This document shows, piece after piece, positions 5,783 to 63,119 of a DNA stretch of 64,000 nucleotides. A program made the position numbers and the translations under genes. Each line of letters begins with the position of its first letter. Position 1 is the first letter of the stretch. The DNA is from an uncultured Flavobacteriaceae bacterium (GTDB taxonomy: Bacteria; Bacteroidota; Bacteroidia; Flavobacteriales; Flavobacteriaceae), in contig CALSUF010000001.1 in the NCBI GenBank assembly GCA_943789465.1, positions 62,001-126,000 of the forward strand, in the 5' to 3' direction. The notes below the pieces were generated by a model that saw nothing but the letters and a program-made list of their open reading frames with translations, was not told the origin of the DNA and ran no database searches.

Positions 5783-7078
5783 CTAATATTTTTTTAAAAG
5801 GGTTAAATTAAATCGCTTGAAACCCGTTATTTTAACCAAGGATTGATAGTCCTTCTGTAACTGAAAAAGAGTGTCTGAATTGGCAGTTGTATGTTTTTCT
5901 AGTTGATATGCCGCGATGCAGTAAAATAAATTTAAATAGTGGTAATACGAATTGGAGGGACTTACATTTAAATTAATTTGATTAAAACTATAAATGGCAT
6001 CTTTGTAATTCTGTCTTTTCAATTTCACTAATACATGTGCAATCAAGTAAACATTATGGGATGTATAAAATTGCCAAGTGGGGTTGACAAAAAGATTTTT
6101 ATCATAAAGCTTAAAAATTGTTTCTAGAGTTTCTATTTGTTTGGTGAATATAAGTGCAGGGAAAACTTCTATGTAAAATAAAATCTTAGAATATTGTTTA
6201 CCTGTTTTAATAATCTGTAACAACAATGTGTGGAGGGGTTGTTTGAATTTAAAATGCTGTATCAGCAACTGATACCCTAACAACCGCCCATGTAATACAG
6301 GGAACATCTTAGGACTCATAACTTCAGGTTGGTAGGGTTCAAAATTTGATTTTCCAGCTAAAAAGAGATGATAGTTTTTTATTAGATTGATAAAAATTCT
6401 TTGATCTGGGTGAGTATCATGTGCAAATCTGGCTGTATTTAAGTAGCCATAGTAGCCATTAAAATGTGTGTAATCTACATGGAAATCTAAAATATATTTT
6501 TTAAAAACATATGTATCTGACAGTAGTGCTTCTAGCTCTATATATCTATTTTTAGGCAGCGTTCTTAAAAGCCCTCCAACAGCATATGCTAATTTTTCAA
6601 GCTCCTTATTTTGGGAACTTATATCGAAAAAAATAGTAGGATTTGAAAATATAGTTTTCAATAGATCAATTCTATTTCTTCGAATAAATGTCTTTATAAT
6701 GTAACTTAGAAACAACACATAATCGGGATGTGATTTTAGAGCGACCAATTGTTGAATTTGAGAGGGATCGATTGACTGAAAATTTTCAAAATCGTTTATA
6801 AAAGTCCAGTGAAACCAGTTTTGATCTTTATTGATAATATTTAAAAAATCCGAGTAGGATGCATGTCCCAAAAATTTTGCTAAGACTTCCAATGTTTGAA
6901 GCTGTGGAGCTCCTGCTGGTAAAAACCCGAAGAAGCGACGCAAGGTATTAAAGCCAATCTTAAAGTTATTTTCTAAAACTATAGCTTGGTGAAGGTACCG
7001 CACATCGGCTTGACGCCGAATTTCAAAACCTAACTTTTGATTAATGTCTTGTTTTAATTGTTTGATCATGTACTCCAT
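5783..7078 (-). CDS. HTH-headed helical protein, copy 1 (putative regulator)
   Basis: I do not recognise a named family. The 431-aa protein has an N-terminal segment (about residues 5-75) with the Bacteroidota-type pattern TLRRFFGF then TLEVLAKFLG, which looks like a DNA-binding helix-turn-helix. It is followed by about 350 residues of mostly alpha-helical, TPR-like sequence containing the motif NGYYG. The gene at 7705-8973 is a clear paralogue (TIRRFYGL, TLNTLAQFIG, NGYYG, nearly equal length). Each faces a small paralogous gene across a short intergenic region carrying an 11-bp tandem repeat. A role as the local transcription factor is inferred. Start options are ATG 7078 or ATG 7069. A TAATTTTG element at 7084-7091 would make the upstream ATG nearly leaderless. 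Confidence 0.7.
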   Translation of the reverse strand: MEYMIKQLKQDINQKLGFEIRRQADVRYLHQAIVLENNFKIGFNTLRRFFGFLPAGAPQLQTLEVLAKFLGHASYSDFLNIINKDQNWFHWTFINDFENFQSIDPSQIQQLVALKSHPDYVLFLSYIIKTFIRRNRIDLLKTIFSNPTIFFDISSQNKELEKLAYAVGGLLRTLPKNRYIELEALLSDTYVFKKYILDFHVDYTHFNGYYGYLNTARFAHDTHPDQRIFINLIKNYHLFLAGKSNFEPYQPEVMSPKMFPVLHGRLLGYQLLIQHFKFKQPLHTLLLQIIKTGKQYSKILFYIEVFPALIFTKQIETLETIFKLYDKNLFVNPTWQFYTSHNVYLIAHVLVKLKRQNYKDAIYSFNQINLNVSPSNSYYHYLNLFYCIAAYQLEKHTTANSDTLFQLQKDYQSLVKITGFKRFNLTLLKKY

Positions 7079-7106
7079 AAATTCAAAATTAAGAAAAATT
7101 TGACTT

Positions 7107-7153
7107 ATGGGCTATAATTGGGCTATAATTTAAAATTATTTAAATTAGATTTG
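7107..7153 (+). promoter_or_regulatory. Tandem 11-bp repeat plus -7 element, copy 1
   Basis: ATGGGCTATAA and TTGGGCTATAA sit head to tail at 7107-7128, followed by 17 bases and a perfect TAnnTTTG element (TAGATTTG, 7146-7153) that drives the gene at 7180. The repeats occupy the -33 region, where an activator would contact RNA polymerase. The same arrangement and the same 17-base spacing occur at 8989-9035 and, on the other strand, at 62719-62765. Confidence 0.7.
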
Positions 7154-7179: not shown

Positions 7180-7584
7180 ATGGCAACAAGTGTTACAAAA
7201 CACTCCATAAAAGCAAACGTAAGAAAGCAAACCAACTCGAGGCTAGCTCAAAAAATAGTAGAAAATTATATTGATAAAACTAAAATGAGTTTTAGTGTAT
7301 TGCAAAAAGTTTGGTTTGATGAGTTGCAAGGTGTTAATGGAGTTATCAAAAATCTGAATGATATTGATAAAGGGAATGAACAAAACTATTATATAGACAC
7401 TCCAATTACATTAATTGATGGTACAAAAATTGCCATATGCAACCAATGGGAAGAAAAGAATTTCTCAAATTTTATTTTACATGCTAGACAGTTAGGGGTT
7501 GAAATCAAAGCTGATGATTTTCAAGTAGAATACGTAACCAATTATTCCAAAAAATTAAAGTCAAAATCCTCAAATTTACTCTAA
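7180..7584 (+). CDS. Small conserved protein of unknown family, copy 1
   Basis: The 134-aa protein has no signal peptide or membrane helix and no family I recognise. It is clearly paralogous to the protein at 9043-9429 through the core FSVLQKVWFD, LQG, GVIK, then PITL-x-DGTKI and CNQW, and the closing HA-x-x-LG segment. Only the first 25 residues differ freely. It is transcribed from a promoter with the 11-bp tandem repeat, divergently from the HTH-headed gene at 5783-7078. A hairpin terminator follows at 7618. In copy 2 the same position leads into the surface-fibre genes, so copy 1 may be the remnant of a module that lost its fibre pair. Confidence 0.75.
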   Translation: MATSVTKHSIKANVRKQTNSRLAQKIVENYIDKTKMSFSVLQKVWFDELQGVNGVIKNLNDIDKGNEQNYYIDTPITLIDGTKIAICNQWEEKNFSNFILHARQLGVEIKADDFQVEYVTNYSKKLKSKSSNLL

Positions 7585-7704: not shown

Positions 7705-8973
7705 TTAGGCAAAATAATTGACTAAAAAATCTTCTGAGAAGTAAGCGTATTTTAAGTCTTTACTTAGTGTGGTATATACCTTTTTAATTTTGGATTTTTT
7801 AGAATCTATTTTAACATCTCCAAATAGATAAATTTGATATAATATTGTGATTAAATCACTATAGCTATATACGCAATTCTCCAAGCTAAAAAGATTAATA
7901 TATTTTTTTTCATTTGATAGTTCTCCACAGGATTTATAATAAAACGCACTCATCAAGTAGAAAGAGTTCAAATGATTCTTTTGATAATAAAAATCAGGCT
8001 TCTGATCAATGTTGATTTCTCCAATTAAAAATGCCATTAACTGCAGATCCTTGATTAGTATCGCAGTGGTGTAAAGCTCATAATAATAGTCTGTTATATT
8101 TGATTTTTTTGCATGAATTTGTTTATAGGTGTCTAAAATTCTCAATTTCTGGTTGCTATTATTTAGCAGTAGTTTTAACGCTAATAAACGACTGCATAGA
8201 ATAGGGTTTAAATCTGTTGAAAAAATTAAATCTTTTGAAAAAATTAAATCTTTGTGACAGTCAACGGGCTTTTTACAATTTAAAAAAAATTTAAATTGTA
8301 AAACCGCAGAGCTAAACAAAGCTATTTCATTTGTAGGTGAATTGCGTTTAATCGTTTCTGTCCATTCCCCATAATAGCCGTTCAAATTAGAATAATCCAC
8401 AAAAGTTAAATAGACACATTGTAAAAAATTAGTATTTTTGAGCAACAATACATCTATTTCTGGCTGTTTACGAAGCAATAACCCTATTGAATTTCCCAAA
8501 TACAATACTTCTGAATAGGAGAAAGTATCAAAAGCAAGTGCTTTTAGCCTGAACAGTTTATCTATTAAAGAATAACTTTCGTTATGTAACAACTCTCTTG
8601 TTAACATTACGATAAAGCCCGTAAAATTTTCAAGACTTTTTTTAGTGGAGTTGACTAAGTTAATTATGACTTTTTCATCGCCGTCAAAAACCGCTTTATA
8701 AGTAAGCTGAGATAAATCAATTTTTTCTCTATAAATGTCTGTTTGCGTAAAATGAATATAATTTTTATAACCTATAAATTGAGCTAAGGTATTTAGTGTT
8801 TTAATATTTGGCTTCGTTTGAGGTGCTAAGCCATAAAATCGTCTTATGGTACTACAACTTATATCAATATCTAGTGTTTCAGTCATAGTATTCGAAACCA
8901 ATTCACAGTCTCCACGAGTTTTTATTGGTCTTCCAATTTTCTCTTCAATTCTTTTTCTTAAAACGTTAACCAT
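7705..8973 (-). CDS. HTH-headed helical protein, copy 2 (putative regulator)
   Basis: This is a paralogue of the protein at 5783-7078. The N-terminal HTH-like part contains STIRRFYGL and TLNTLAQFIG. The remaining 340 or so residues are helical and TPR-like, with FVDYSNLNGYYG in the middle. The ATG at 8973 (MVNVLRKRIEEKIG) aligns with copy 1. A TTG at 8997 would extend into the tandem repeat and is less likely. It differs from copy 1 by a six-residue tandem duplication (FSKDLI / FSTDLN), caused by an exact 18-bp duplication at 8217-8252. It is divergent from the small protein at 9043 and the fibre genes behind it. A regulatory role is inferred from the HTH-like head and the position. Confidence 0.7.
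   Translation of the reverse strand: MVNVLRKRIEEKIGRPIKTRGDCELVSNTMTETLDIDISCSTIRRFYGLAPQTKPNIKTLNTLAQFIGYKNYIHFTQTDIYREKIDLSQLTYKAVFDGDEKVIINLVNSTKKSLENFTGFIVMLTRELLHNESYSLIDKLFRLKALAFDTFSYSEVLYLGNSIGLLLRKQPEIDVLLLKNTNFLQCVYLTFVDYSNLNGYYGEWTETIKRNSPTNEIALFSSAVLQFKFFLNCKKPVDCHKDLIFSKDLIFSTDLNPILCSRLLALKLLLNNSNQKLRILDTYKQIHAKKSNITDYYYELYTTAILIKDLQLMAFLIGEINIDQKPDFYYQKNHLNSFYLMSAFYYKSCGELSNEKKYINLFSLENCVYSYSDLITILYQIYLFGDVKIDSKKSKIKKVYTTLSKDLKYAYFSEDFLVNYFA
8217..8252 (+). repeat. Exact 18-bp tandem duplication inside copy 2 regulator
   Basis: TTGAAAAAATTAAATCTT occurs twice head to tail (8217-8234, 8235-8252). It is in frame and adds six residues to the helical region of the protein encoded at 7705-8973. 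The paralogue lacks it. Confidence 0.85.
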
Positions 8974-8988
8974 AGTATATTTTAAATT

Positions 8989-9035
8989 ATGAACCAAATA
9001 TGAACCAAATATAACATAAATATAAATTAGTTTTG
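8989..9035 (+). promoter_or_regulatory. Tandem 11-bp repeat plus -7 element, copy 2
   Basis: ATGAACCAAAT is repeated exactly at 8989-8999 and 9000-9010, followed by 17 bases and TAGTTTTG (9028-9035), a perfect TAnnTTTG. The start codon of the next gene is at 9043, so the transcript would be almost leaderless. Spacing is identical to the copies at 7107 and 62765. Confidence 0.7.
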
Positions 9036-9042
9036 ATGGTAA

Positions 9043-9429
9043 ATGAATATTGATTTACATAGCGTGCCAAAAATTTATCCAAAAAGTCCTTACAGTGGAC
9101 TTTTAAAAAATCCAAACCGTTCGAGACTAGTTCAGAAGACTATTAAAAATTTCATTGATACATCTAAAATGGGTTTTAGCGTGTTGCAAAAAGTTTGGTT
9201 TGATGATCTACAAGGCGCTGTAGGTGTTATTAAAAAATTAACCGAGGTCGATAAAAAGAATGCACAAAACTACGACATGAACGATCCAATTACTTTAAGT
9301 GATGGCACTAAAATTGTCGTCTGTAATCAGTGGGGAAAAGAAAATTTGACAAACTTTATTTCACACGCAAAACTATTAGGACTCAATATTAAAGTTGAAA
9401 GTTCTCAAACAAAAATGAAAATCAATTAA
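9043..9429 (+). CDS. Small conserved protein of unknown family, copy 2
   Basis: The 128-aa protein is paralogous to the one at 7180-7584. It shares FSVLQKVWFD, GVIKKL, DPITL-x-DGTKI, CNQWGKEN and the closing HAKLLGLNIK. It has no signal peptide, so it should be cytoplasmic. Function is unknown. It is the first gene after the tandem-repeat promoter. The T9SS-sorted gene starts 90 bases after its stop with no terminator or clear promoter between them, so it probably heads an operon with the surface cassette (9520, 9993). One possibility is a regulatory partner for the HTH-headed protein or a helper for the cassette. Both are guesses. Confidence 0.75.
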   Translation: MNIDLHSVPKIYPKSPYSGLLKNPNRSRLVQKTIKNFIDTSKMGFSVLQKVWFDDLQGAVGVIKKLTEVDKKNAQNYDMNDPITLSDGTKIVVCNQWGKENLTNFISHAKLLGLNIKVESSQTKMKIN

Positions 9430-9519: not shown

Positions 9520-9996
9520 ATGAAACATCTAATATTACTTTGTATGCTTATGAGTTTGAGTGTGTCTTCTCAAACCATTTCAAAACAAGTGATTGGCCCT
9601 GGCGGATCCACTGTTGACAATGGCACCAACAAATTAAGTTATACCACCGGCGAAGTGCTCGTAGGCGCTATGACTTCCGAAGATGGCTCCATACAGCTTG
9701 GAAATGGGTACTACCCTTCCTTAGACTTGGAAGCCTTGAGCGTAGAAAATCCTGAACTTCAACTGAATTTAAAAGTATATCCCAACCCCGTAACTGAAGC
9801 CTTTTATATATCACACCCTTCAGCGATACAGTTTAAGCTGGACATCGCAGAAATTAACGGTAAACAGCTATTTTCAGGGACACATCAAAAAGAAGCGCCC
9901 TTTTCGATGCAATCCTACGGATCAGGCGTTTATTTAATTACAATAACAACTTTAGAAAATAACCAATCAAATACTTACAAAATCATAAAACAATGA
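9520..9996 (+). CDS. Short T9SS-sorted surface protein (cassette 1, first gene)
   Basis: The 158-aa protein has a signal peptide (to about residue 18). A conserved region of about 50 residues follows, containing KQVIGPGGST, NKLSYTTGEV and SIQLGNGYYPSLD. It ends in a type A T9SS sorting domain (VYPNPVTEAF through SGVYLITI to KIIKQ). There is little room for any other domain, so it may act as an anchor or adaptor. The paralogue at 62219-62698 has the same layout. In both cases the next gene overlaps by four bases (ATGA), implying translational coupling with a fibre-like protein. It should be exported across the outer membrane and attached at the cell surface. Confidence 0.85.
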   Translation: MKHLILLCMLMSLSVSSQTISKQVIGPGGSTVDNGTNKLSYTTGEVLVGAMTSEDGSIQLGNGYYPSLDLEALSVENPELQLNLKVYPNPVTEAFYISHPSAIQFKLDIAEINGKQLFSGTHQKEAPFSMQSYGSGVYLITITTLENNQSNTYKIIKQ

Positions 9997-11717
9997 AAAA
10001 ATTACTCATAACATTACTGCTTGCCTTAACAAGTACTTTGAGTTTACAAGCTCAAACACAACAAGGATTTAACTACCAAGCTACCGTTCGAAATGCTGGA
10101 GGAGAACTGATTGTCAACCAAAATGTCAATTTTAGGTTCAATATCCAACAAGGATCTGAAACAAGCAGCCCTATATTTACAGAAACCCACTTAGTTTCTC
10201 CAGACGATTTAGGTCAAGTAAATCTTGTCATCGGAGATGGTACTTCTATTATTGGCGATTTTAGTCAAATAGACTGGTCGTTAGGAAGTTATTTTTTGGG
10301 CATCGAGCTTAATACAGGTGCTGGTTATGTAGCTATGGGAACCACCCAACTCCTCAGTGTTCCGTTTGCATTGTATGCAGAAAATTCTGGTACTGAGGCC
10401 TCCGATCTTCAAACTGTATTAAACACCGGCGCTATTGCAGACTTGGTTGTGAGCGAAGAAAATGTATCCGGAATTGAACTTTCTACTTCTGGAGGTGACG
10501 AAGCTGGTAATTCCTATTACGGAATTGTGAGTTCCATTGCTGGAACTAATGGTGAAAATACTGGAGTACTTGGCGAATCTACAGGAATGAATACATACAG
10601 AAATTACGGATTAAGAGGAGCTGCTTCAGGCGCAGAAGTGAATAATATTGGTGTTCAAGGGATTTCTAATAGTGAAACAGGACACAACTATGCTGTTTGG
10701 GGAATAGCTGCCAATGCTGTAGATGGAAATGATAACAGAGGCATCATGGGATATGCTACTTCACCAACACCAACTGGAAAAAACTATGGTGTTACAGGAT
10801 GGACAGGCGGTTCAGAGGTTTTTAATATTGCTCTAGGTGGCTATGCCGATGCTGCCAACAGTACCAATGGGAGTAATTATGGAGTGCAAGCGAGAGCGAG
10901 TGCCGTTACTGAAAACGGATATAACTACGGCGTTTATTCTGAAGCAAGCAATGCACCAAATAACTATGGTATACATGCAAGCGCAATTGGCACAGTAGGA
11001 AATAATTACGGGATTTTTGCTAATGCATCCGGTGGCGAGTTCAACTTTGCAGGGTATTTCATTGGGGATGTTGTCGTTACCGGGGGTACTTTAACCGCTG
11101 ATGTGACCTTAGACAGTGCACCAACCGAAGAAATGGATGCAACAACCAAAGGGTATGTTGACCAACTCATCGCAGAATTAAAGAGTGAAATTCAACTTTT
11201 AAAATGGAAAACTTCACCACTTATTGGATCATGGAAACTAGCACCAGAAGCATATGCACTTACTTTAGGCCCAACTTTGAACGACTTTTCTTGGTATTGG
11301 AATACTTTAGAATCGGTTACTGAAAATAGAGCGTGTCAATTTGATGATGAATATATATTTGGTGCAGATGGATCGTTCCAAAATGTTTTAGGGACACAAA
11401 CTTATTTAGAAGAATGGCAAGGTACGGTGAATGAGTGCGGTACACCAGTTGCGCCACACGATGGAACAGCAACCGCGACTTATATATACAATGAAGCAGA
11501 TGGAACGATTACAATTAATGGGGTTGGGGCATACCTAGGATTGTCCAAAGTTGTTAATGGTTCAGAACTACTCAGTCCTGCGGATGCAGCGAATTCAATT
11601 ACGTATATGGCAACTCTTTCAGAAGATGGAAACACATTAGACTTAGACATTGAATCCACAACAGCAGATGGATCACAGGCTTTTTGGTCTTTTAAACTCG
11701 TAAGGCAAATGCAATAG
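9993..11717 (+). CDS. Fibre-like surface protein with glucan-locus tip domain (cassette 1)
   Basis: The 574-aa protein starts with a signal peptide and a roughly 120-residue domain (QGFNYQATVRN to LLSVPFALYAENSG) shared with the protein at 60945-62222. About 230 residues of degenerate NYG-containing repeats follow, resembling the shaft of a tail fibre. The stretch TKGYVDQLIAELKSEIQ then looks like a trimeric coiled coil. The last 165 residues (from about 409) are the same domain that occurs three times in the surface protein at 40972-42825 (WKLAPE, FDDEYIFGADGSFQN, APHDG). It has no T9SS domain of its own. It overlaps the preceding T9SS gene by four bases. A surface adhesin or glycan-binding fibre is the likely role. 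Confidence 0.75.
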   Translation: MKKLLITLLLALTSTLSLQAQTQQGFNYQATVRNAGGELIVNQNVNFRFNIQQGSETSSPIFTETHLVSPDDLGQVNLVIGDGTSIIGDFSQIDWSLGSYFLGIELNTGAGYVAMGTTQLLSVPFALYAENSGTEASDLQTVLNTGAIADLVVSEENVSGIELSTSGGDEAGNSYYGIVSSIAGTNGENTGVLGESTGMNTYRNYGLRGAASGAEVNNIGVQGISNSETGHNYAVWGIAANAVDGNDNRGIMGYATSPTPTGKNYGVTGWTGGSEVFNIALGGYADAANSTNGSNYGVQARASAVTENGYNYGVYSEASNAPNNYGIHASAIGTVGNNYGIFANASGGEFNFAGYFIGDVVVTGGTLTADVTLDSAPTEEMDATTKGYVDQLIAELKSEIQLLKWKTSPLIGSWKLAPEAYALTLGPTLNDFSWYWNTLESVTENRACQFDDEYIFGADGSFQNVLGTQTYLEEWQGTVNECGTPVAPHDGTATATYIYNEADGTITINGVGAYLGLSKVVNGSELLSPADAANSITYMATLSEDGNTLDLDIESTTADGSQAFWSFKLVRQMQ

Positions 11718-60944: not shown

Positions 60945-62222
60945 TTAATCCCTAACAAAACGCACTGAAAAGCCGTTCCGCTTGTAGTAGCTGTACCAGA
61001 ATAGGTTACTGCTAACGTTGTACAGGTAGCGGCTCCAAGCGTAATCTGAATCGAACTCAGTGGAACTCCAAAAGAAAGCATTGAAACCCTCAGGGTAGAA
61101 CGAACCATTGTTGTAACGGTAACCCTCTGGGAAGGCATTAAAGTCACTGCTGTTGTTTAAGCTTTGGTCATTGCCTATTGCTCCTACATCTACATCTGTT
61201 GAACTATTCCATCCAGTGTTGGAGGCCATCGCTTTGGCTATTTTGTTTTCTGTGGTGGTGCCGTCATAATTATAACCACTCGCTATGAGATATTCTTCAA
61301 GCGTTGTCCACTCGGCATCTGTGGGTACGTGCCAACCCTCTGGGGCAAATTCTTTATTAGGAGTGTTAGGGTCGTTGTCGTGTATCCCTGCAACAGCATA
61401 CCAATTATAAAGTTTTGGCTTTGTGGGGTCATTATTGTAATAACACCAAGCGCCTGTGGTAGTATCGGCCCAGACTCCATTAGAAGTTACCTGTGGAATC
61501 TCTGTACCATCTCTATACGTCACCATTTCGGCATTATCCACTGTCCAAACCTGGTCGCCGTAAGTAATGTAATTGTATGTGTTGCCGTCTTGGTCTGTGA
61601 CTGTGCCTGAACCGTCATCAGATTCCAAGTTATCTATCTGGTTTTGAAGGTTAGCAATTAAGGCATCAACCTCACTTTGAGAATAAAATTGTGTTTCTGC
61701 ATAATTTTTTGTCACTGCATCCTGCGCCTCTGTAGGGTCTTGTAAATCTTTTATCTGTTGACTATTTGCAGAATTGTTTTCAGCGAGTACTGCTTCTAAA
61801 TTTGGTGTTGCTGATGTAGCGTTGCCACTGTTCTCTGCATATAATGCGAAAGGAACACTAAGCAGTTGTGTGGTGCCCATAGCCAAATAACCATTACCTG
61901 TATTAAGCTCTATGCCTAAGTAATAACTTCCTAGAGACCAATCCAGTTCTGAGAAGACGCCTGTATTGGCTGTACCTTGTCCAATCACAAGATTAACTTG
62001 CCCCAAATCGTCCGTTGGCACATAGTGTGTTTCTGTGAAAACAGGCACTGCTGTTTCAGAACCTTGGATCACATTAAACTTAAAATACACATTGGTATTT
62101 ATGATTAAATCCCCAGCACTGTTTCTTACAGTCGCTTGGTAGTTAAAACCCTGTGGGGTTTGCGCTTGTAGTTGTGTGAGTGATGCTATGGCTAGGCATA
62201 TTATGGCGTAAAACTTTTTCAT
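60945..62222 (-). CDS. Fibre-like surface protein with FISUMP tip (cassette 2)
   Basis: The 425-aa protein shares its signal peptide and first 130 residues (QGFNYQATVRN, LLSVPFALYAENSG) with the fibre protein at 9993-11717. A short coiled-coil stalk follows (DAVTKNYAETQ, SEVDALIANLQNQIDNLE). The tip (about 210-425) is a FISUMP domain (MVTYRDGTEIPQV, LYNWYAVAG, EGWHVPTDAEWTTLEEYL, FSVRFVRD), a fold related to C-type lectins. The last 40 codons are unusually C-ending (TAC, AAC, AGC) in an AT-rich genome and recall a diversity-generating variable region. It overlaps the T9SS gene by four bases. Confidence 0.82.
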   Translation of the reverse strand: MKKFYAIICLAIASLTQLQAQTPQGFNYQATVRNSAGDLIINTNVYFKFNVIQGSETAVPVFTETHYVPTDDLGQVNLVIGQGTANTGVFSELDWSLGSYYLGIELNTGNGYLAMGTTQLLSVPFALYAENSGNATSATPNLEAVLAENNSANSQQIKDLQDPTEAQDAVTKNYAETQFYSQSEVDALIANLQNQIDNLESDDGSGTVTDQDGNTYNYITYGDQVWTVDNAEMVTYRDGTEIPQVTSNGVWADTTTGAWCYYNNDPTKPKLYNWYAVAGIHDNDPNTPNKEFAPEGWHVPTDAEWTTLEEYLIASGYNYDGTTTENKIAKAMASNTGWNSSTDVDVGAIGNDQSLNNSSDFNAFPEGYRYNNGSFYPEGFNAFFWSSTEFDSDYAWSRYLYNVSSNLFWYSYYKRNGFSVRFVRD

Positions 62223-62698
62223 TGCTTAATGATTTTATACGTATTGGTTTGTTTTGAATCTTTTGTGGTGACTGTTACAAAGTAAGTGCCTGTGGTGAGT
62301 GTTTGAACACTTAAAGGTTGCTCTTTTTGATGTTGGGTTTGTAGAATTTGTTTTCCACTTACATCTGTAATCCTTACTTCAAAGAATTGTTCTGTGGGAT
62401 GGGTGATATAAATGGCTTCTGTCACAGGATTTGGAAAGACCTTGACTTGTAATTGTAGCTGTGGTGTTTGTGTAGTTAAAATTGTTAAATCTAGGGAGGG
62501 ATAATAGCCGTTTCCTAATTGGATGCTGCCATCTTCGGAGGTCATGGCACCGACGGCTAGTTCTCCAGCGGTATAGCTAAGTTTGTTATTTCCGTTTTCA
62601 TAAGTGGCTCCTGCTGGACCAATGACTTGTTTGGAAATCGTTGGCTGAGCATAGGCTGATAATCCTAACAGCAAAAAAGCTAATATGAAGTAACGCAT
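62219..62698 (-). CDS. Short T9SS-sorted surface protein (cassette 2, first gene)
   Basis: The 159-aa protein is paralogous to the one at 9520-9996: signal peptide, KQVIGPAGATYENGNNKLSY, DGSIQLGNGYYPSLDL, then a type A sorting domain (VFPNPVTEAIYI, TGTYFVTVTT, TYKIIKQ). It is probably translocated by T9SS and may anchor or assemble the overlapping fibre-like protein. It is transcribed from a promoter with the 11-bp tandem repeat also used by the distant module at 7-9 kb, but no HTH-headed gene lies next to it, so control would be in trans. Confidence 0.85.
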   Translation of the reverse strand: MRYFILAFLLLGLSAYAQPTISKQVIGPAGATYENGNNKLSYTAGELAVGAMTSEDGSIQLGNGYYPSLDLTILTTQTPQLQLQVKVFPNPVTEAIYITHPTEQFFEVRITDVSGKQILQTQHQKEQPLSVQTLTTGTYFVTVTTKDSKQTNTYKIIKQ

Positions 62699-62718: not shown

Positions 62719-62765
62719 CAAATATAAAAAAATAAAAACCATTTTTAAGCCCATAATAGGACCAT
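62719..62765 (-). promoter_or_regulatory. Tandem 11-bp repeat plus -7 element, copy 3
   Basis: On the minus strand ATGGTCCTATT (62755-62765) and ATGGGCTTAAA (62744-62754) are head to tail, followed by 17 bases and TATATTTG (62719-62726), a perfect TAnnTTTG. The T9SS gene starts 20 bases later. Layout and spacing equal those of the copies at 7107 and 8989. Confidence 0.65.
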
Positions 62766-62823
62766 AATAAAAATTAGATAATTAACGAAATTTATCTGTT
62801 TGTTTAAAATAGCCCAAAAAACA

Positions 62824-62861
62824 TTCGTTTCGGTTTTTCATCTGTACTGAAGACGGGACTT
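62824..62861 (+). repeat. Partial copy of the tRNA-Leu 3' end and downstream DNA
   Basis: The 38 bases differ by one from 62987-63024, which covers part of the tRNA-Leu terminator and the 3' acceptor/T-arm strand of tRNA-Leu. The rest of the tRNA is missing. A hairpin GGGACTTAGC/GCTGAGTCCC follows. It resembles an attachment-site remnant. Another partial copy (terminator only) lies at 60737, on the far side of cassette 2. Confidence 0.75.
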
Positions 62862-62972
62862 AGCTGCGCTGAGTCCCAGAATCAACATTTTGAAAAAAGC
62901 CGACGCCACTATACAGCTTGTTTATTATTTCCTTAAACTCATTAAAGCAAGCTTTACTCGTTACAGGAAACA

Positions 62973-62999
62973 AAAAAGCCGAAACGTTCGTTTCGGCTT
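62973..62999 (-). terminator. tRNA operon terminator
   Basis: AAGCCGAAAC and GTTTCGGCTT form a 10-bp stem with loop GAAC on the minus strand, followed by TTTT, just after tRNA-Leu. Confidence 0.88.
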
Positions 63000-63007
63000 T
63001 TCATCTG

Positions 63008-63091
63008 TACTGAAGACGGGACTTGAACCCGTACGTCCTAATGGACATTGGATTTTAAGTCCAACGTGTCTACCAATTCCACCACTTCAGC
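63008..63091 (-). tRNA. tRNA-Leu (anticodon TAA)
   Basis: An 84-base cloverleaf with acceptor GCTGAAG/CTTCAGT, anticodon loop CTTAAAA, a long variable arm as expected for Leu, and T-arm ACGGGTTCAAGTCCCGT. CCA is not encoded. It lies 28 bases after tRNA-Gly on the same strand. Confidence 0.96.
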
Positions 63092-63119
63092 ATCTTGGTA
63101 TGTTTTAAAAAAGTATCAG

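Follow-up and report, generated by a model that had tools for sequence, protein, structure and literature searches.

Tandem 11-bp operators and a family of predicted HTH–helical-repeat regulators that appear to control individual surface-protein cassettes in Flavobacteriaceae

A family of predicted regulators of about 420 aa, nameless in the libraries that we searched, appears to control individual surface-protein cassettes through tandem 11-bp direct repeats. By comparing genome sequences, we show that these operators are paired with the regulator genes, that they keep a conserved geometry relative to the facing promoter, and that operator and regulator have diverged together. From these comparisons we infer binding, activation, autoregulation and any signal that is sensed.

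Results

Three promoters in the window

The window, which is the whole 64-kb stretch of flavobacterial DNA that was analyzed, contains the following features.

5783..7078, minus strand: putative regulator P0001, 431 aa, predicted HTH and helical repeats; likely start at 7069 (MIKQ)
7084..7091, minus strand: TAATTTTG, directed toward the regulator gene P0001, 17 bp from the operator-1 repeats in a register shifted by 2 bp
7107..7128, plus strand: operator 1, two 11-bp direct repeats ATGGGCTATAA/TTGGGCTATAA, 10/11 identical
7146..7153, plus strand: -7 element TAGATTTG in the promoter of the small-protein gene, separated from operator 1 by 17 bp
7180..7584, plus strand: small protein P0003, putative target at locus 1
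7705..8973, minus strand: putative regulator P0002, 422 aa, predicted HTH and helical repeats; ATG 15 bp from operator 2
8989..9010, plus strand: operator 2, ATGAACCAAAT twice (11/11 identical)
9028..9035, plus strand: -7 element TAGTTTTG, 17 bp from operator 2
9043..9429, plus strand: small protein P0004, putative target at locus 2
9520..9996, plus strand: P0005, a short protein with a T9SS type A sorting domain
9993..11717, plus strand: P0006, fibre-like, with an N-terminal Bdello_MAT_N match below the cut-off
60945..62222, minus strand: P0008, fibre-like, with a C-terminal FISUMP (Fib_succ_major) domain
62219..62698, minus strand: P0007, a short T9SS type A protein
62719..62726, minus strand: -7 element TATATTTG in the promoter of P0007, separated from site 3 by 17 bp
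62744..62765, minus strand: operator-like site 3, ATGGTCCTATT/ATGGGCTTAAA (7/11 identical), a probable P0001 site

Operator 1 lies between the divergent genes for P0001 and P0003, and operator 2 between those for P0002 and P0004, the latter followed by P0005 and then P0006. Site 3 (locus 3) is located upstream of P0007 and P0008, a paralogous pair. The two regulators are distant paralogues (24% identity over 272 aligned columns), P0003 and P0004 share 55% identity over 108 columns, and the products of the regulator-adjacent genes in the window are 128-134 aa long.

A preliminary description of this DNA had reported tandem 11-mers followed by 17 bp and a perfect TAnnTTTG at three loci. This arrangement can be read directly at loci 1 and 2, where the two copies agree at 10/11 and 11/11 positions. 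The same description held the copies to be near identical within each locus, which is true of loci 1 and 2 but not of locus 3, with 7/11 in the register then used; in a register shifted upstream, site 3 reads TTTTATTATGG/TCCTATTATGG and is 9/11 identical. The pattern WTGRNCYWAWW given for the repeats fails at position 9 in the locus-1 copies. The operator-1 cores are ATGGGCT and TTGGGCT, both of which recur in five orthologous loci. On each strand a -7 element stands at a gap of 17 bp to operator 1; the earlier account did not include the one on the minus strand.

Chance occurrence in AT-rich DNA of this genome had been named as an objection to the shared design. We scanned the 64-kb window and 400 kb of the same genome (464 kb from an assembly of 2.1 Mb in 5 contigs, 85% complete), which together hold 861 TAnnTTTG sites. 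A tandem pair of at least 10/11 at a gap of 17 bp (N17) precedes three of the 861. One is at locus 2; the other two are both at locus 1, which counts once for each strand because its repeats are also 17 bp from the TAATTTTG that faces the divergent gene. Pairs of at least 7/11 at N17 precede 28 of the 861 sites and 15 of the 175 intergenic ones, and locus 3 is therefore unremarkable by self-similarity in that register. By this measure, agreement as high as at loci 1 and 2 is rare, and agreement as high as at locus 3 is common.

A putative regulator family with no convincing library match

Neither Pfam nor NCBIfam contained a convincing model for P0001, P0002 or a 21-member set of the family, and no HTH or TPR sequence model matched these proteins at the thresholds used. 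An AlphaFold2 model of P0002 (mean pLDDT 79.9) has five helices in the first 80 residues, followed by helical repeats, and we read the five N-terminal helices as a putative HTH domain. A sequence search of the PDB with the regulator gave a best E-value of 0.47, and the Foldseek and VIA-align lists for the model were topped by unrelated helical-repeat proteins. Among 198 related genomes, the source genome included, matches to P0001 were found in 18, to P0002 in 22 and to P0004 in 8, and a profile built from the 21 members found matches at E ≤1e-10 in 26 of 395 genomes sampled across the order. Among the papers found by searches of open-licence PMC literature, no title or abstract start described such a site or regulator family, which does not prove their absence, and nothing was found there on the control of T9SS-sorted fibre cassettes in marine Flavobacteriaceae.

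The small protein likewise matched no Pfam or NCBIfam family above cut-off. Its best match in PHROGs had an E-value of 0.036, and its structural model (pLDDT 78.4) gave no convincing fold match in the PDB or BFVD. PDC-S57, a phage-defence candidate model of PADLOC, matched P0004 at E 1.2e-5 and P0003 at E 0.0014; a literature search on PDC-S57 returned no paper. The small protein also occurs as the N-terminal domain of larger proteins with varied C-terminal parts (L017, L019-L034).

Operators lie beside regulator genes at a fixed distance from the facing promoter

We collected the upstream regions of 53 distinct regulators, including the three from the source genome, after removal of near-identical ones, and selected those containing a pair of 7-mers, each with TG as its second and third letters, at a spacing of 11 bp. 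This tandem-core filter was passed by 22 of the 53 regulators, whereas 200 shuffles averaged 1.36 and never exceeded 5. When periods of 8-15 were compared for the first 33 regulators, 11 was the sole best period in 22, tied in one and not best in 10. By eye, GTAC-type pairs spaced 10-11 bp are present close to the start of some of the 31 regulators that failed the filter; a few of these pairs can be read as inverted, and several of the upstream regions show nothing.

A TAnnTTTG-like element (at least 5/6) was present at a gap of exactly 17 bp in 20 of the 22 filter-passing loci, all except L060 (4/6) and L148; because the loci are related, the 20 do not count as independent cases. The other 36 gaps in the range 3-39 together hold 11 such elements across the 22 loci, and all 11 of the perfect (6/6) elements lie at gap 17. 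The same gap was seen in two loci that fail the filter, L039 (= L178, scored) and L050 (by eye). The promoter design proposed from the window is thus shared by regulator loci of relatives and of the source genome. On the other side, the operator is 6-37 bp from the regulator start across the 22 loci, and 6-17 bp from the start codon in 14 of them; this distance varies mostly between clades and depends on the assigned start codons.

A TTG at -33 is missing from all 22 target promoters. This is weak evidence for activation, because most background promoters lack it too, with a TTG at -33 in 16 of 83 (and in 4 of 83 at a control distance).

At L074/L211 (G003:C6), several tandem 11-bp repeats of the AGTACAT type lie between the regulator gene and a lipoprotein-like gene, the last of them 17 bp from a perfect TAATTTTG.

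Operator and HTH sequences diverge together

The operator cores are of the types ATGGGCT, ATGAACC, ATGAATC, ATGAGCC, ATGTACA, ATGTACT and ATGTATC, with T in place of the first A in some copies. Their common part is [A/T]TGnRYn, from which the first core of locus 3, ATGGTCC, deviates at position 5 (R). Distances between HTH sequences were correlated with distances between operator cores (Mantel r 0.857, 0/10,000 permutations, n = 21 with L148 left out). As a control, the 17-bp spacers gave r 0.51, so that part of the correlation between HTH and operator is due to shared descent. This co-divergence agrees with the earlier suggestion that the sites had diverged with paralogous HTH-headed regulators. 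At L025 and L026, the targets are 91% identical and the regulators 21% identical, and the operators, of the ATGGGCT and ATGAACC types, are each of the type of the locus's own regulator.

Genes facing the operators

The facing gene is P0004-like in 12 of the 22 loci (L065, L067-L070, L035, L012, L015, L018, L017, L033 and L032; that of L070 was read in L205). A fibre-type gene faces the operator in L088 and, judging by eye from a short fragment, in L060; the facing gene is lipoprotein-like by eye in L047, L058 and L074, and other or unclear in L030, L087, L127 and L148. In G004 (L206, outside the 22), the regulator directly adjoins a T9SS cassette, and an operator stands there at N17. The gene after the lipoprotein-like one at L074/L211 encodes a T9SS-sorted protein, and a collagen-like protein is encoded two genes further on. 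G013 and G008 each have a second operator copy, located between the small-protein gene and the T9SS gene; the element at the 17-bp gap is TAGCTTAG (5/6) in G013 and TAGCTCAG (4/6) in G008. The small protein and the T9SS/fibre cassettes, named earlier as the gene set behind these promoters, are therefore both represented among the predicted targets.

Two loci show signs of change. At L066/L213 (G006:C99) the operator and a perfect -7 element are kept and no ORF of at least 35 aa starts within 400 bp, which would fit either a decayed target or an untranslated RNA. At L185 (G008:C38:28438-28854) a P0005-like cassette gene carries two in-frame stops; the regulator and small-protein frames of this module are open.

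Mostly private operators, with candidate distant sites

The preliminary description had proposed one regulon. We searched for the tandem TAGCCCA pattern in 18 genomes of the genus at up to two mismatches and obtained 68 matches, against 28 for the reversed control. Six exact matches and one with a single mismatch all lie beside regulators of the P0001 type, and the other 61 have two mismatches. Since the exact matches are confined to regulator loci, a single genome-wide regulon was rejected; each regulator instead appears to have its own operator beside its own gene. A second pattern gave 17 matches against none in the control, the five exact ones all at regulator loci. Ten cassettes away from regulators (L005, L006 and eight in relatives, locus 3 being considered apart) had a core pair at N17 in no case, and nine of the ten had none within 160 bp. 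The tenth, L006 (G000:C1 near 467,400), has the tandem pair TTGGCACTAAT/TTGGCACTCTT (9/11, TTGGCAC twice) upstream of a P0007-like cassette; this pair does not obey the family's core rule and stands 48 bp away from the -7 element. The search of the whole genome and of relatives that had been called for was carried out here on 464 kb and the relatives, and cassettes without such a pair proved to be common. On these sequence comparisons, the relationship appears to be mostly one regulator per cassette.

A looser pattern, in which a looser core is followed by N17 and TAnnTTTG, gave 42 matches at up to two mismatches in the 18 genomes, against 17 for the reversed control. Matches with mismatches also occurred in genomes lacking a regulator; for this reason, and given the 17 control matches, we used only the six exact ones. 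Four of these are at regulator loci and the others are locus 3 and G017:C16:28007, of which only the G017 match is independent, because the looser pattern was written with locus 3 already known and widened to admit it. The G017 site precedes a gene for a NusG-domain protein similar to the UpxY antiterminators (94.3 bits, cut-off 100), followed by a WecA-like transferase and sugar-nucleotide genes that make up a polysaccharide locus, and G017 encodes a regulator of the P0001 type. Among the 61 two-mismatch TAGCCCA matches, surroundings were read for two chosen by eye. One (G014:C22) is a perfect ATGGGCT core pair before a lipoprotein-like gene at a gap of 18 bp; the other (G006:C61) lies inside an open reading frame and was judged to be a chance match.

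Locus 3 might stand outside the system, with weak repeats that resemble an operator by chance in AT-rich DNA upstream of a TATATTTG promoter of the ordinary kind. Its self-identity of 7/11 is common, as noted above; the leader and the -7 element recur at its sister cassettes, L005 and L006, without such a pair at N17; its first core is two positions off the orthologous core; and the stricter TAGCCCA search misses the site. We had read locus 3 as chance from its self-identity and sister cassettes, and revised this reading because of a matrix built from the five orthologous locus-1 operators, by which locus 3 scores 15.0 bits and ranks second among 2064 promoter-like sites. The next-best site in the 464-kb sample scores 6.0 bits, locus 3 keeps 13.4 bits when locus 1 is added to the matrix, and the estimated chance count of sites scoring like it at N17 is 0.002-0.005 in the sampled DNA. 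It is also one of the two exact matches to the looser pattern away from regulators in the 18 genomes, although that pattern admits it by design. An accidental origin is therefore doubtful to us, and the distant cassette at locus 3 is probably under the control of P0001 as well. Together with the polysaccharide operon of G017 and the lipoprotein gene of G014, locus 3 is a candidate distant target, and by these matches regulators of the P0001 type may have one or two such targets each.

Cassettes away from regulators were also scanned for nearby tRNA genes. A tRNA gene lies within about 0.65 kb of the T9SS cassette in six of the nine loci scanned (62800-63100 in the window; L004, L005, L006, L174, L177 and L180, and none at L181, L182 and L184). 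The tRNAs are Leu (with Gly beside it), Arg three times and Ala twice. In locus 3 and L005 the tRNA is followed by a short, incomplete duplicate of its 3' end, as if the cassettes integrate at this place.

Discussion

We consider class-II-like activation of the target, combined with autoregulation, a likely role for the HTH–helical-repeat regulator. The protein would be a one-component regulator composed of an HTH domain (about 80 aa) at the N-terminus and a helical-repeat domain (about 330 aa) at the C-terminus. The 7-bp cores [A/T]TGnRYn are spaced by one helical turn and would be occupied by a pair of HTH domains in head-to-tail order. From this place, which covers -33 in the target promoter, the regulator would stand in for the missing -33 contact and bring RNA polymerase to TAnnTTTG, and the same binding would probably restrain the regulator's own divergent gene. 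The predicted targets are the small protein of unassigned family, the T9SS/fibre cassettes and the lipoprotein-like genes. Each cassette would answer to its own regulator, because the operators diverge with the HTH, and autoregulation is suggested by the short distance to the regulator start in 14/22 loci. If TAnnTTTG begins near -12, as we assume, the two cores centre near -42, which is a class II position. A class II site is one at a fixed distance over -35/-33, and the gap here is 17 bp in 20/22 loci; the position relative to the transcription start is a presumed one.

The regulators could instead be repressors, with repeats that cover both the target -33 and the regulator promoter or leader and block polymerase on both sides until a signal arrives. 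The -7 element on each side of the locus-1 repeats would suit such an arrangement, the position close to the regulator ATG is typical of autorepression, and the match of P0004 to PDC-S57 would fit as well, since defence genes are often repressed. A repressor would not need exactly 17 bp, however, yet the spacing to the target promoter is constant and that to the regulator gene ranges over 6-37 bp, and for this reason we favour contact with polymerase over simple blocking. There is also no -33 TTG to block in any of the 22 target promoters, though most background promoters lack one too. On balance we judge repression unlikely.

OmpR/PhoB-family sites, among them the PHO box, lie over the -35 region and serve activation. 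Binding by another protein, such as a response regulator of this family acting on a PHO-box-like site with the divergent HTH gene as a bystander, would account for the geometry, in that the PHO box consists of 11-bp direct repeats with a conserved 7-bp core (GTTCACC in S. coelicolor, PMC9019756), but it is very improbable, given that operator type tracks the divergent regulator and not the target (targets 91% identical carry different operators), that HTH and core distances correlate so closely, and that the six exact tandem TAGCCCA sites in the 18 genomes all adjoin these regulator genes.

With activation by the divergent regulator as the preferred reading, the system can be compared with known ones. 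The flavobacterial operators share the 11-bp direct repeats and 7-bp core of the PHO box; they differ in that each operator is private to its regulator, and P0001, P0002 and the 21 family members have no Pfam match to a receiver or winged-helix domain. In its geometry the site is thus PHO-box-like, but the protein family linked to it is different and nameless in the libraries searched.

In LysR-type systems the regulator is divergent from its target and the two share one operator region. The divergent layout and the proposed combination of autoregulation and target activation are alike here, whereas the protein family is different (the regulators scanned gave no Pfam or NCBIfam match to LysR HTH or substrate-binding domains) and the flavobacterial operators are tandem 11-bp direct repeats.

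The predicted order of an HTH followed by helical repeats recalls the RRNPP regulators (PlcR, NprR, ComR, Rgg, PrgX and AimR). VIA-align superposed the P0002 model, from residue 1, on PlcR (3u3w; Z 9.1, rmsd 14.4, 243 aligned), ComR (5jub; Z 8.8, rmsd 15.1, 258 aligned), Rgg144 (7zcv; Z 8.3, rmsd 15.1, 251 aligned) and Rgg3 (6w1f; Z 8.3, rmsd 14.7, 254 aligned). A Z-score under about 13 may reflect merely a common arrangement in this program, and unrelated helical proteins (separase, MalT and APC/C) reached Z 9.0-9.9, equal to or above the RRNPP values. We therefore treat the likeness, which comes from a predicted model, as a lead. The flavobacterial regulators also differ from RRNPP in belonging to Bacteroidota instead of Firmicutes, in having no Pfam or NCBIfam match, and in their direct-repeat sites; several RRNPP regulators use inverted sites.

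The fibres themselves have a possible parallel in the mosaic adhesive trimer (MAT) fibres of Bdellovibrio (PMC10769870). NF053851 is matched by three N-terminal regions, those of P0006, P0008 and the G004 fibre, with E-values from 2.6e-8 to 3.6e-9 and scores of 34-37 bits that are below the curated cut-off of 60, and the flavobacterial fibres are accompanied by T9SS-sorted partners.

It is conceivable, though we think it rather improbable, that the family is a Bacteroidota counterpart of RRNPP, in which ligand- or peptide-sensing regulators each switch on their own fibre cassette via a private operator. If this were true, a cell could express individual chimeric fibres under individual signals. 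The analysis provides a testable cis-element for the T9SS-sorted fibre cassettes of marine Flavobacteriaceae, consisting of two [A/T]TGnRYn cores 11 bp apart and 17 bp from TAnnTTTG, together with its likely regulators. The regulators and operators form pairs that have diverged in nature, with at least seven core sequences among them. Such pairs could reveal how the specificity of HTH domains evolves, and they might yield non-cross-reacting parts for Bacteroidota.
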